64,000 bases of DNA, taken from the NCBI RefSeq assembly GCF_900100005.1, contig NZ_FNEB01000005.1:186001-250000 (forward strand), in the 5' to 3' direction. Shown in pieces: positions 4,765 through 8,120 of the stretch. The notes under the pieces are model-generated. The model made no database searches, had not been told where the DNA came from, and worked only from the letters and a program-made list of their open reading frames with translations. Every line of letters starts with the position of its first letter. Position 1 is the first letter of the stretch. Position numbers and translations under genes: made by a program. The stretch is from Lutimaribacter saemankumensis (GTDB lineage: Bacteria > Pseudomonadota > Alphaproteobacteria > Rhodobacterales > Rhodobacteraceae).

Positions 4765-4896
4765 GGGCACCGTGATGGCGGGCAAATCCGTGCTTGGCAA
4801 GACGCCTGCGCGGTATTCTTCGGCACACAGCGCCATGTTGCGTCCCACCGCCAAAGGCGCTAGGCGATGGCGAACCAAATTTCCTTGGAGAGTCCC

Positions 4897-6123
4897 ATGT
4901 CCGCGCCCAAGAAAGTCGTGCTGGCCTATTCCGGCGGCCTAGATACCTCGATCATCCTGAAATGGCTGCAAACCGAATACGGCTGCGAGGTCGTGACATT
5001 CACTGCCGATCTTGGCCAGGGCGAGGAACTTGAACCCGCCCGCCAGAAAGCCGAGATGCTGGGGATCAAGCCCGACAACATCTACATCGAAGACGTCCGC
5101 GAAGAGTTCGTGCGGGATTTCGTTTTCCCGATGTTCCGCGCCAATGCCGTCTACGAGGGCCTGTATCTGCTGGGGACGTCGATCGCACGGCCGCTGATTT
5201 CCAAGCGTCTGGTCGAAATCGCCGCCGAAACGGGCGCCGATGCCGTGGCACATGGCGCGACGGGCAAGGGCAACGACCAGGTCCGGTTCGAACTGTCCGC
5301 CTATGCCCTGAACCCTGAGATCAAGGTCATCGCGCCCTGGCGCGAGTGGGATCTGACCAGCCGCACGAAACTGATCGATTTCGCCGAAAAGAACCAGATT
5401 CCGATCGCCAAGGACAAGCGCGGCGAAGCGCCGTTCAGCGTGGACGCAAACCTGCTGCACACCTCGTCCGAAGGGAAAGTACTGGAAGATCCGGCACAGG
5501 ATGCGCCCGAATACGTCTATCAGCGCACCGATAGCCCCGAAGAGGCGCCCGATACGCCGGAATACATCGAAATCACTTTCGAAAAAGGCGATGCCGTCGC
5601 GATCAACGGCGAGGCGCTCAGCCCCGCAACGATCCTGACACGGCTGAACGAATACGGGAAAACCCACGGTATCGGCCGGCTCGATTTCGTCGAAAACCGT
5701 TTTGTCGGCATGAAATCGCGCGGCATCTATGAAACGCCCGGCGGGACCATCCTTCTCGAGGCGCATCGCGGGATCGAACAGATCACGCTGGACAGCGGCG
5801 CGGGCCACCTGAAGGATTCGATCATGCCGCGTTATGCCGAGCTGATCTACAACGGTTTCTGGTTCAGCCCCGAACGCGAGATGCTGCAGGCCCTGATCGA
5901 CAAGAGCCAGGAACACGTCAGCGGCACCGTCCGGCTTAAGCTTTACAAGGGTTTGGCGCGCACCGTTGGCCGGTGGTCGGATCATTCGCTGTATTCCGAG
6001 GCACATGTGACCTTCGAAGAGGATGCCGGCGCGTACGATCAGAAGGATGCGCAAGGCTTTATCCAGCTGAACGCGCTGCGCCTGAAGCTGCTTGCCGCGC
6101 GGAACCGTCGCCTGAAAGGGTAG
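4897..6123 (+). CDS. argG: Argininosuccinate synthase
   Basis: 408-residue enzyme joining citrulline and aspartate with ATP, the penultimate step of arginine synthesis. The N-terminal PP-loop is AYSGGLDTS (residues 10-18), and the protein is collinear with ArgG throughout (GHTGKGND-like segment [28 protein letters not shown]). TTGGAG lies eight bases before the ATG at 4897; an in-frame ATG at 4867 has no such site. A strong intrinsic terminator follows at 6155-6185. The upstream 130 bases are shared with the divergent ilvA. Confidence 0.97.
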
Positions 6124-6154: not shown

Positions 6155-6185
6155 AAAATACCCGCCTCATTGGGCGGGTATTTTT
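6155..6185 (+). terminator. Rho-independent terminator after argG
   Basis: A perfect 12-bp inverted repeat, AAAATACCCGCC (6155-6166) and GGCGGGTATTTT (6173-6184), with a six-base loop and a run of T. It lies 32 bases after the argG stop. The A-rich left arm would also give a T-run on the minus strand. Confidence 0.92.
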
Positions 6186-6204
6186 GTTATGGACCACTGA
6201 CACA

Positions 6205-6486
6205 ATGCTGAACGAAATCGCCGAGCGGATAAACCAGGGCCTGGCCGGGCAGGAATTCGACGGATCGCTGAAATTCGATTGCGGCCCGGACGGCGTGCTT
6301 GTTCTGGCTGACAACAATGCCACGACCATTGATCAGGAAACCGACTGCACGATCCGGCTTAGCCTTGAAAACCTAAAGGCCCTTCTGGCGGGCAAGCTGA
6401 ACCCGATGACGGGTGTAATGATGGGCAAGCTCAAGCTGACCGGTAATCCAGCCGTGGCGATGAAGCTTGGATCACTGCTGAAGTAG
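6205..6486 (+). CDS. SCP2 sterol-carrier-domain protein
   Basis: 93-residue protein made of one small SCP2 fold: the segments DGSLKFDCGPDGVLVLADN, CTIRLSLENLKALLAGKLNP and GKLKLTGNPAVAMKLGSLL match the family pattern in which a lipid tunnel is closed by the last helix. Bacterial members bind lipids or fatty acyl groups; the ligand here is unknown. Start at ATG 6205; a TTG at 6184 in the same frame falls inside the argG terminator and was discarded. It stands alone, with a weak ribosome-binding site, and converges on the sulfotransferase-like gene with three bases between stops. Confidence 0.85.
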   Translation: MLNEIAERINQGLAGQEFDGSLKFDCGPDGVLVLADNNATTIDQETDCTIRLSLENLKALLAGKLNPMTGVMMGKLKLTGNPAVAMKLGSLLK

Positions 6487-6489
6487 AGC

Positions 6490-7212
6490 CTAATCCAGCC
6501 GAATTCGCCGTTCGGCCAGTTCGTTATAGAATGGCAATGCCAGATCTGCGAGGTCAGCCAGCCTGCCTTGCAGCGCGGGCAGATCGCCTTCGGCGGGCGC
6601 AAATCCCGTGCTGTCATGGACGGCGCCGTACCAGTGCGGGGCCCAGGCTCCATCGTCAGGGTGCCCACCCTTTGGCCACGACAGCATCTTGTCCGTCCAG
6701 GGAATCCCGATTGCCCGGCACAGCTTTGAGAGCATCTGCGCAGGGTCGCGACGGATATCGGCGCTGTCGATCACCACGGGATTTTGCCCAAGCGACACGC
6801 AGTAATCGTGCAGTTCGGCCTGTTGGATGAACCCGATATCGGTCAGCGAGGGGCTTTCGTATTTCGCGCCGAAACTGGCCGCCACGCGCGCGGGATGCCG
6901 GATCAGAAAGACATTCACGGCATCTGCCATCCAATCGCGCGGGACACCGTCGATCATATGTTGGCACATGTGTTTCTGATAGAAATACGGCTTTTGTGCC
7001 GGATTGGGTCCAGACAGCACCGCAGCCACTTTACCTGGATTGGTGGATTGGCTGGCCAGAATCTGTTCTCGCATCGGGTGGTTCAGCGCGGTGAAGTGCA
7101 GATAGGCGGCATAGAACGGCTCATCTATGACCGCACAATCCCCGCGCGCCGCAAAGGAATACATCATGGCGGTCGAAAGGTTCCGTGGCCCACTCCACAT
7201 TGCGATCTTCAT
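6490..7212 (-). CDS. Sulfotransferase-like P-loop protein, coupled to the aminotransferase upstream
   Basis: 240-residue cytoplasmic protein. The N-terminus MKIAMWSGPRNLSTAMMYSF resembles the 5'-phosphosulfate-binding loop of PAPS-dependent sulfotransferases, and VFLIRHPARVAASF (about residue 105) resembles the 3'-phosphate motif with its conserved Arg and Ser. The family is often annotated as a sulfotransferase although the acceptor, and even sulfonate transfer, is unproven. Its ATG overlaps the stop of the aminotransferase gene (ATGA at 7209-7212), so the two are translated together on the minus strand. The coupling suggests that the two proteins act on the same small molecule (inference). 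Confidence 0.75.
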   Translation of the reverse strand: MKIAMWSGPRNLSTAMMYSFAARGDCAVIDEPFYAAYLHFTALNHPMREQILASQSTNPGKVAAVLSGPNPAQKPYFYQKHMCQHMIDGVPRDWMADAVNVFLIRHPARVAASFGAKYESPSLTDIGFIQQAELHDYCVSLGQNPVVIDSADIRRDPAQMLSKLCRAIGIPWTDKMLSWPKGGHPDDGAWAPHWYGAVHDSTGFAPAEGDLPALQGRLADLADLALPFYNELAERRIRLD

Positions 7213-8120
7213 TGCGCGCATTCCCGGGCGATAAGATCCTTGTAAAGCGCGCGTATCCGCCGGGTCATCGGGCCCATTTCGCCATCACCGATCTGCCGGC
7301 CATCGATTTCGCCCACCGGCGTCTGTGCGCCGAACGTGCCGGTCAGAAACGCCTCGTCCGCGCCATACGTATCGACAAGGCTGAAATTCCGTTCGAACAC
7401 GGGAATACCGTTCGCCCGGCAAAGATCGATCACCTTGGCGCGGGTGATTCCGTTCATGCAGTAATCGCCGGTGCTGGTCCAAACCTCGCCCTTGCGGACG
7501 ATGAAAAAGTTGCAGGCGTTTGTCGTGTTCACGAACCCGTTCACATCCAGCATCAGCCCCTCGTCCGCGCCAGCCTTTTCGGCGGCGATGCAAGCCAGGA
7601 TGCAATTCAGCTTGGAGTGGCTATTGAGTTTTGGATCCTGCGTCATCGGCAGGCCCCGGATGTGCGGCACCGTGGCAAGCCGGATTGGCCGCGGGATCGA
7701 CGGACGGGAATGCTCCATGATGATTGCGACGGTCGGACCCTGCTGGCTGAGACTCGGGTGCTGGAACGGACGGGTTTTCACACCGCGCGTGACCATCAGG
7801 CGGGCGTGCGCGTCATCGGTCATTTCATTGGCTGATTGTGTCTCTAACACGGCCGAAACCACCTGTTCCCGGGTCATCCCGATATCCAGGTCGATGGCCT
7901 TGGCGGCTTCGAACAGGCGATCCATATGCTCGTCAATGAAAGCCCAGCGGTTGTTGTAAAGGCGCAGCCCCTCCCAAACGCCATCGCCCAGCATGAAGCC
8001 GCTGTCATAAACGCTTACCATCGCCTGCGCCTTTGGCACGATACGCCCGTTCAGCCAGATATTGATGCTTTCGTTACGTGCGTCTTCCTCGGCCTGGTGG
8101 GTGGTTACATGTTCGGTCAT
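7209..8120 (-). CDS. PLP fold-type IV (BCAT/D-amino-acid-type) aminotransferase-like protein with altered PLP-contact motif
   Basis: 303-residue class IV aminotransferase-like protein. The PLP lysine is probably K170 in NSHSKLNCILA, and the N-terminal substrate-loop region SVYDSGFMLGDGVWEGLR is typical of the class. In the region that normally reads G-x-V-x-E-G-x-x-x-N, this protein has GFVNTTNACN (195-204). The glutamate that contacts the PLP pyridine nitrogen is therefore replaced by Thr199. This may change the reaction type, so branched-chain transamination should not be assumed. GGAGG lies seven bases before the ATG at 8120. It is coupled by an ATGA overlap to the sulfotransferase-like gene and diverges from msrA. 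Confidence 0.85.
   Translation of the reverse strand: MTEHVTTHQAEEDARNESINIWLNGRIVPKAQAMVSVYDSGFMLGDGVWEGLRLYNNRWAFIDEHMDRLFEAAKAIDLDIGMTREQVVSAVLETQSANEMTDDAHARLMVTRGVKTRPFQHPSLSQQGPTVAIIMEHSRPSIPRPIRLATVPHIRGLPMTQDPKLNSHSKLNCILACIAAEKAGADEGLMLDVNGFVNTTNACNFFIVRKGEVWTSTGDYCMNGITRAKVIDLCRANGIPVFERNFSLVDTYGADEAFLTGTFGAQTPVGEIDGRQIGDGEMGPMTRRIRALYKDLIARECAQ

Follow-up and report, generated by a model that had tools for sequence, protein, structure and literature searches.

A class IV aminotransferase-like protein without the Schiff-base lysine and its association with a sulfotransferase

Described relatives and the active site of the window protein

The closest solved structure to the protein considered here is 7z79, the wild-type form of an aminotransferase-like protein from Variovorax paradoxus, of which 9j32 is the N174K mutant. 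In the column that holds the Schiff-base lysine of class IV (fold-type IV) aminotransferases, 7z79 has Asn and 9j32 has Lys, and as both are deposited the missing lysine is already public for one relative. No paper on 7z79 or N174K, or on fold-type IV proteins without the lysine, was found in a literature search. The archaeal branched-chain aminotransferases (BCATs) 5mqz, 5cm0 and 5e25 keep the Schiff-base Lys, the Tyr that follows it and the Glu that contacts N1 of PLP. Engineered loss of this Glu is represented by two mutants of the Bacillus D-amino-acid aminotransferase, E177S (1g2w) and E177K (5daa), both of which presumably keep the Lys; going by entry titles and the fold match, E177S resembles the natural Thr/Ser described below. 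A natural replacement of the catalytic lysine is found in ColD (GDP-4-keto-6-deoxymannose 3-dehydratase), which is of fold type I, unlike the fold-type IV protein of this study. Passages of PMC8987622 describe ColD as an aminotransferase relative that has a natural His for the catalytic lysine and works with PMP; there the His stands in the Lys position itself, whereas the protein described here has Asn in that position and a His two residues further on.

This protein, referred to as P0001, is encoded in a stretch of 64,000 nucleotides of Lutimaribacter saemankumensis contig NZ_FNEB01000005.1, which we call the window. The genes that concern us are the following.

7209..8120, minus strand: class IV aminotransferase-like gene P0001 (303 amino acids), with neither the catalytic Lys nor the Glu that contacts N1
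6490..7212, minus strand: Sulfotransfer_5 (PF19798) gene (240 amino acids), with its ATG at 7212 and a further ATG upstream at 7221
6184-6486, opposite strand to the sulfotransferase gene and beyond it: small SCP2-like gene
4867-6123, beyond the sulfotransferase and SCP2-like genes: argG, read from the open reading frame

The reading frame at 7209-8120 had been proposed, with no strand given, to encode a class IV aminotransferase, and the product is indeed a homologue of that class, matching Pfam Aminotran_4 with an E value of 2.5e-38. It also matches 18 NCBIfam families (IlvE, D-AAT and PabC models), none of them above the curated cut-off, the top match being PRK08320 at 237.5 bits against a cut-off of 363. 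A structure model built from 43 rows has a pLDDT of 89.6 and replaced one built from 14 close rows (pLDDT 59.2). It superposes on 7z79 with a Z-score of 41.1 and an rmsd of 1.4, on 5e25 with a Z-score of 36.7 and on the archaeal BCATs in general at about Z 36; 7z79 is the best match by sequence (298.9 bits) as well as by fold and, like P0001, combines Asn in the Lys column with the absence of the Glu. The archaeal BCATs share the fold and the phosphate cup with P0001, to which they are about 37% identical when structurally aligned, but differ in retaining the Lys, Tyr and Glu. The residues in question are located as follows.

7623..7625, minus strand: Asn166 (codon AAT), in the Schiff-base lysine column
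7605..7625, minus strand: residues 166-172, the family signature N-S-H-S-K-L-N, with K170 in the column of the Tyr and not of the Lys
7509..7538, minus strand: residues 195-204, GFVNTTNACN, with Thr199 (codon ACG, 7524-7526) in the Glu column and the invariant Asn201
7917..7919, minus strand: Arg68, phosphate cup, kept
7443..7448, minus strand: Ile225-Thr226, phosphate cup, kept
7335..7337, minus strand: Thr262, phosphate cup, kept

The original prediction held that P0001 lacks the Glu and keeps the catalytic lysine as K170. The model confirms the fold, and alignment with fold-type IV proteins bears out the loss of the Glu: Thr199 falls in the Glu column, within an ungapped stretch, against 5mqz, 5cm0, 5e25 and the four further class IV paralogues of the same genome (L011-L014), all of which have Lys and Glu. 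The lysine was misplaced, however, as K170 lies four residues after the Lys position, which is occupied by Asn166. Aligned with 5mqz, P0001 (pklNSHSKLN) has Asn166 under the lysine of ppniKSlnyLN and K170 under Tyr; three of the four paralogues also have their lysine in the Asn166 column, and that of L011, which is gapped there, agrees with this column in the larger residue reading of 190 matches described below. Passages of PMC8401098 give K143, Y147, E176, I202, T203 and T239 for the Haliscomenobacter D-amino-acid transaminase, and on these numbers the spacings 143-147, 143-176, 176-202 and 203-239 equal 166-170, 166-199, 199-225 and 226-262 of P0001, with the Arg-to-Lys spacing differing (98 residues in P0001 and 91 in the transaminase). 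As judged from these alignments, P0001 has the cup Arg, Ile-Thr and Thr of fold-type IV enzymes and is missing both of the side chains that define the PLP site, Lys and Glu, not one. With the Schiff-base lysine gone, an ordinary internal aldimine at position 166 cannot form. The expectation of non-standard chemistry thus stands in part: the Glu is absent and P0001 is very unlikely to carry out standard transamination, although the cause would not be merely a weakened N1 contact, since the Lys is not kept either. A lyase, racemase-like or half reaction may still be its chemistry.

Conservation across the lysine-less clade

The residue reading covered 190 matches, the best match of each locus fetched. 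Asn166 is present in 181 of the 181 matches with at least 45% identity to P0001, a figure that includes the gene of the window and some genes fetched twice and corresponds to 157 distinct relatives. The other nine, at 38% identity or less, keep Lys and Glu; they are the four paralogues from the same genome and L176-L180, five relatives that belong to a single family of the phylum. Because of this division, read from the sequences, Asn166 is not the product of chance or of a sequencing error.

Across the 157 distinct relatives N166, H168, S169, N201, R68 and T226 are unchanged, while position 199 holds Thr (144 relatives) or Ser (13) and position 170 holds Lys (144) or Arg (13). Residue 262 is Thr except for Ser in five, residue 225 is Val in 23, and residue 222, which precedes the cup, is hydrophobic (M, F or L). 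A possible replacement of the Glu by another acidic residue was looked for at positions 195-204 of the same 157 relatives and none was found. Even the best conserved lysines of the family (115, 164 and 170) vary with Arg and none is invariant, so that an alternative Schiff-base lysine is not evident. In the N type (the members with Asn166), eleven columns are fixed to 99% or more for a residue absent from a lysine-bearing set of seven, obtained by leaving L013 and L014 out of the nine rows: D13 (which is outside the aligned part of that set), W49, H105, M109, Q120, N166, H168, S169, N201, S216 and L248. Several of the frozen residues (Trp49, His105, Gln120, His168, Ser169 and Asn201, with Lys/Arg170) presumably line what is, by equivalence, the BCAT substrate site. 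Such coordinated replacement followed by freezing, as seen in the aligned sequences, points to a new function and not to loss of function.

A tree built from 61 rows separates the 52 N-type rows from the rest at a single branch with support of 98/97; the four paralogues form very long branches, for which the program warns that placement is unsure, and 7z79 is absent from this tree. P0001 has the features of the lysine-less clade of 7z79, namely Asn in the Lys column, Thr/Ser in the Glu column and the motif N[ST]HS[KR]L. We name five subfamilies, A1 (to which the window gene belongs), A2, B, C and D, of which A2 does not form a single clade, two of its 13 rows being placed elsewhere, and C has weak support (88/63). 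Unlike P0001, 7z79 carries the motifs NSHSRLN and VSSCNSTN and is nearer to subfamilies B and D. The samples differ in what they can tell. One set of loci derives from patterns that contain the family motif and is the best 80 of 531, so it cannot test how rare the motif is, and a whole-profile search is the fairer sample. That search matched 46 of 398 genomes of the phylum at an E value of 1e-55 or better, and all 46 matches were read by residue: 41 are of N type (at least 415.9 bits) and five have Lys and Glu (at most 202.9 bits). The search profiles were all built from N-type rows, and relatives that keep the Lys are therefore under-sampled.

Association with a PF19798 sulfotransferase

The stop codon of P0001 and the start of the Sulfotransfer_5 gene share the bases ATGA on the same strand. 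The neighbour matches PF19798 with a Pfam E value of 8.7e-85, and the P-loop-like motifs SGPRN.ST and L.R.P..V.AS, which we take to be the 5'- and 3'-phosphate motifs for PAPS, are present in at least 97% of 128 distinct relatives. Searching solved structures by sequence with the window sulfotransferase found no relative below an E value of 0.28. Upstream of P0001, on the other strand, is msrA (PMSR). The SCP2-like protein has a weak match, below the cut-off, to the alkyl-sulfatase C-terminal domain, and 19 of 89 loci that were searched gave a homologue of it.

In loci no shorter than 7 kb, the sulfotransferase accompanies 77 of 93 members of subfamily A (77 of 77 A1 and 0 of 16 A2-like), 10 of 10 of C and 5 of 5 of D, and is found with 0 of 8 members of B and 0 of 5 Lys-bearing relatives. 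It lies on the same strand within 200 bp in 75 of the 77 A1 loci (about 760 bp away in the other two) and in all 10 C loci; in D it is directly downstream (within 200 bp) in four of five and directly upstream in one. Within the 80 pattern-derived loci the sulfotransferase is missing from three (L068, L077 and L092), where the contigs end 55 to 351 bases past the match.

The association extends to whole genomes. For 149 genomes of the window's family, counting a sulfotransferase only where the match is strong (at least 196 bits), 101 have both genes, four the lysine-less protein only (G016, G495, G499 and G526), one the sulfotransferase only (G500) and 43 neither (Fisher p 1e-31, ignoring phylogeny). 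The 105 carriers have one match each, at an E value of 1e-80 or better, and were called by this match and not by reading the residues of each. Over the 398 genomes of the phylum, with at least 179 bits required, 37 have both, four the lysine-less protein only, none the sulfotransferase only and 357 neither, so that 37 of 41 lysine-less carriers also have the sulfotransferase, again with phylogeny ignored; the two sets overlap by at least seven genomes. A second, weak group of PF19798 matches, at about 30-95 bits, occurs in G499, G515, G401 and others, and perhaps represents a different sulfotransferase family; genomes with weak matches only (G499, G515 and G401) were counted as being without a sulfotransferase, and G515 and G401 gave no lysine-less match. 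APS kinase was tried as a tracer of co-occurrence and is uninformative because it is present in 137 of the 149 genomes.

The two genes are unlinked in 30 of the 101 two-gene genomes. The surroundings of all 30 sulfotransferase genes were fetched, up to 3 kb on each side and in some cases shortened by contig ends, and the place of the partner was available for all 30. No lysine-less gene was found within these stretches, and argG or msrA adjoins the sulfotransferase in 24. In 29 of the 30 the partner belongs to another subfamily of the lysine-less clade and not to A1: 27 are A2-like (called mostly by 65-74% identity to P0001 plus the motif, not by the tree), one is C (G474) and one is B (G509). 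The remaining genome, G540, has an A1 gene that still adjoins msrA and a ribokinase-like gene, with the sulfotransferase elsewhere. In G004 and G396 an A2-type gene stands beside the sulfotransferase in reversed order, the type in G396 being taken from its tree row, L129. Other subfamilies, at about 45-75% identity to A1, thus appear from their sequences and distribution to stand in for it, and this genomic pattern suggests that A1 and its substitutes have a reaction in common.

Not every member depends on the coupling, as subfamily B is mostly without the sulfotransferase. Three B-type genomes searched for a sulfotransferase gave none above the cut-off; G509, a B-type genome of the window's family that has both genes, is the exception. 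In all eight B loci (L005-L009, L158, L160 and L161) the lysine-less gene is in or next to an amino-acid ABC transporter cluster, with a P5C-reductase-like gene in three and a ClC chloride-channel gene in three. If the substrate could be either taken up from outside or produced with the aid of the sulfotransferase, both the transporter context of B and the sulfotransferase-linked members would be accounted for. The genes adjoining A2-like members are varied and include transporters and racemase-like genes; a gene of the D-serine dehydratase/alanine-racemase-N type lies beside two of them (L183:7588-8736, by Pfam, and L186:7038-8333, from its start sequence only), and a PhyH-type dioxygenase gene (L188:6982-7857) directly follows an A2-like gene. 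Three of the five D loci have a creatinase/M24 peptidase-like gene upstream of the lysine-less gene, in two of them on its strand (for example L181:6946-8115; the Pfam assignment was made on L181 only).

Some plant proteins may fuse a sulfotransferase of this kind to a class IV domain; a literature search on two gene names for the plant fusion proteins found nothing. The missing lysine is already known from one relative (7z79), and for the partnership of the aminotransferase-like protein with the sulfotransferase a literature search found no paper that discusses the pair. The available passages of PMC12506393 include PF19798 among the search models and do not contain the word aminotransferase. 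Two clusters named 'Aminotransferase class IV' and 'Sulfotransferase' follow one another in PMC10040529, which gives 0.81 for their co-occurrence with salt tolerance across six strains and does not discuss them in its section on osmolytes; these clusters are only candidates for the same pair, and a link to halotolerance by this route is too weak to use. A role in phage defence was also considered and set aside, neither P0001 nor the sulfotransferase having a PADLOC match.

Possible functions of the lysine-less protein

Taking conservation and gene association together, we consider it likely that P0001 is a lysine-less, neofunctionalised protein linked to the sulfotransferase. The clade has lost the lysine of the internal aldimine (Asn166) and the N1-binding glutamate (Thr/Ser199), has kept the phosphate cup, and has changed and then frozen Trp49, His105, Gln120, His168, Ser169, Asn201 and Lys/Arg170. 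We infer an enzyme that would act in the same small pathway as the PF19798 sulfotransferase, on an amino-acid-like metabolite. Fold-type II enzymes place Thr/Ser at N1 of PLP, and by analogy we tentatively put forward, at somewhat less than an even chance, that PLP or PMP would be held non-covalently, with Thr/Ser199 at N1 and with His168 or Lys/Arg170 serving in acid-base catalysis in the manner of ColD. His168, invariant in 157 of 157 distinct relatives, is a candidate for the base.

Nearly as likely, and so a serious possibility, is an enzyme or binding protein free of PLP, whose cup would bind the sulfate or phosphate of another metabolite, for instance the product of the sulfotransferase or PAP. 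This would account for R68 and T226 persisting in 157 of 157 relatives, with T or S at 262, when both PLP-specific side chains are gone; it fits a partner that is itself a sulfotransferase, and it fits the B members, which mostly have no sulfotransferase and sit amid amino-acid importer genes, as if the metabolite were imported instead of made. The invariant hydroxyl at the N1 position and the hydrophobic residue 222 nevertheless still seem, by analogy, to suit a pyridine ring. We regard it as unlikely that the protein is a scaffold without catalytic activity or that it regulates the sulfotransferase as an allosteric subunit. In favour of this are the overlap of the two genes, their strong co-occurrence and the apparent substitution of one subfamily for another, but so many invariant residues that are absent from lysine-bearing relatives would be unusual in a dead protein, and B-type members exist without a sulfotransferase.

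The remaining readings have far less to recommend them. The original prediction pictured a PLP enzyme with K170 as the Schiff base and a weak N1 contact leading to lyase, racemase-like or half reactions; the retained cup and the constant Lys or Arg at 170 agree with this, yet K170 aligns with the O3'-contacting Tyr and not with the Lys, and Arg takes its place in 13 of 157 relatives and in 7z79 (NSHSRLN), which makes the proposal highly improbable. An ordinary branched-chain or D-amino-acid aminotransferase, suggested by the fold and by overall similarity (PRK08320, 237.5 bits), can practically be discounted, as no NCBIfam match (0 of 18) reaches its cut-off (237.5 against 363), both defining residues are lost, and four further class IV proteins of this genome have Lys and Glu. 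A more specific version of the partnership, which we think improbable and mention as a speculation, is that the pair makes an amino-acid metabolite carrying a sulfonate or sulfate group. In this case the lysine-less protein would hold an amino-acid-derived (amino)acrylate or a PLP adduct non-covalently and the sulfotransferase would add sulfate from PAPS. An example of such a step, sharing the same slim chance, would be the PAPS:2-aminoacrylate sulfotransferase reaction toward cysteate and taurine, for which to our knowledge the gene is unassigned.

Whichever of these applies to the window protein, which we still regard as a likely neofunctionalised, sulfotransferase-linked member of its fold, the family is conserved in many genera. 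Plasmid records annotate members as aminotransferase class IV or D-amino acid aminotransferase, and since this conserved family is without the standard residues, pathway assignments resting on the aminotransferase name are probably wrong. The family would also show, as a test provided by nature, what such a PLP site of fold type IV is capable of without its lysine. The genomic tie to the sulfotransferase, which persists where the two genes lie separately, offers a direct route to the function, in the direction of a sulfated or sulfonated metabolite; should the two proteins indeed work together on such a compound, this would be catalysis by a PLP fold without the lysine, coupled to sulfation.
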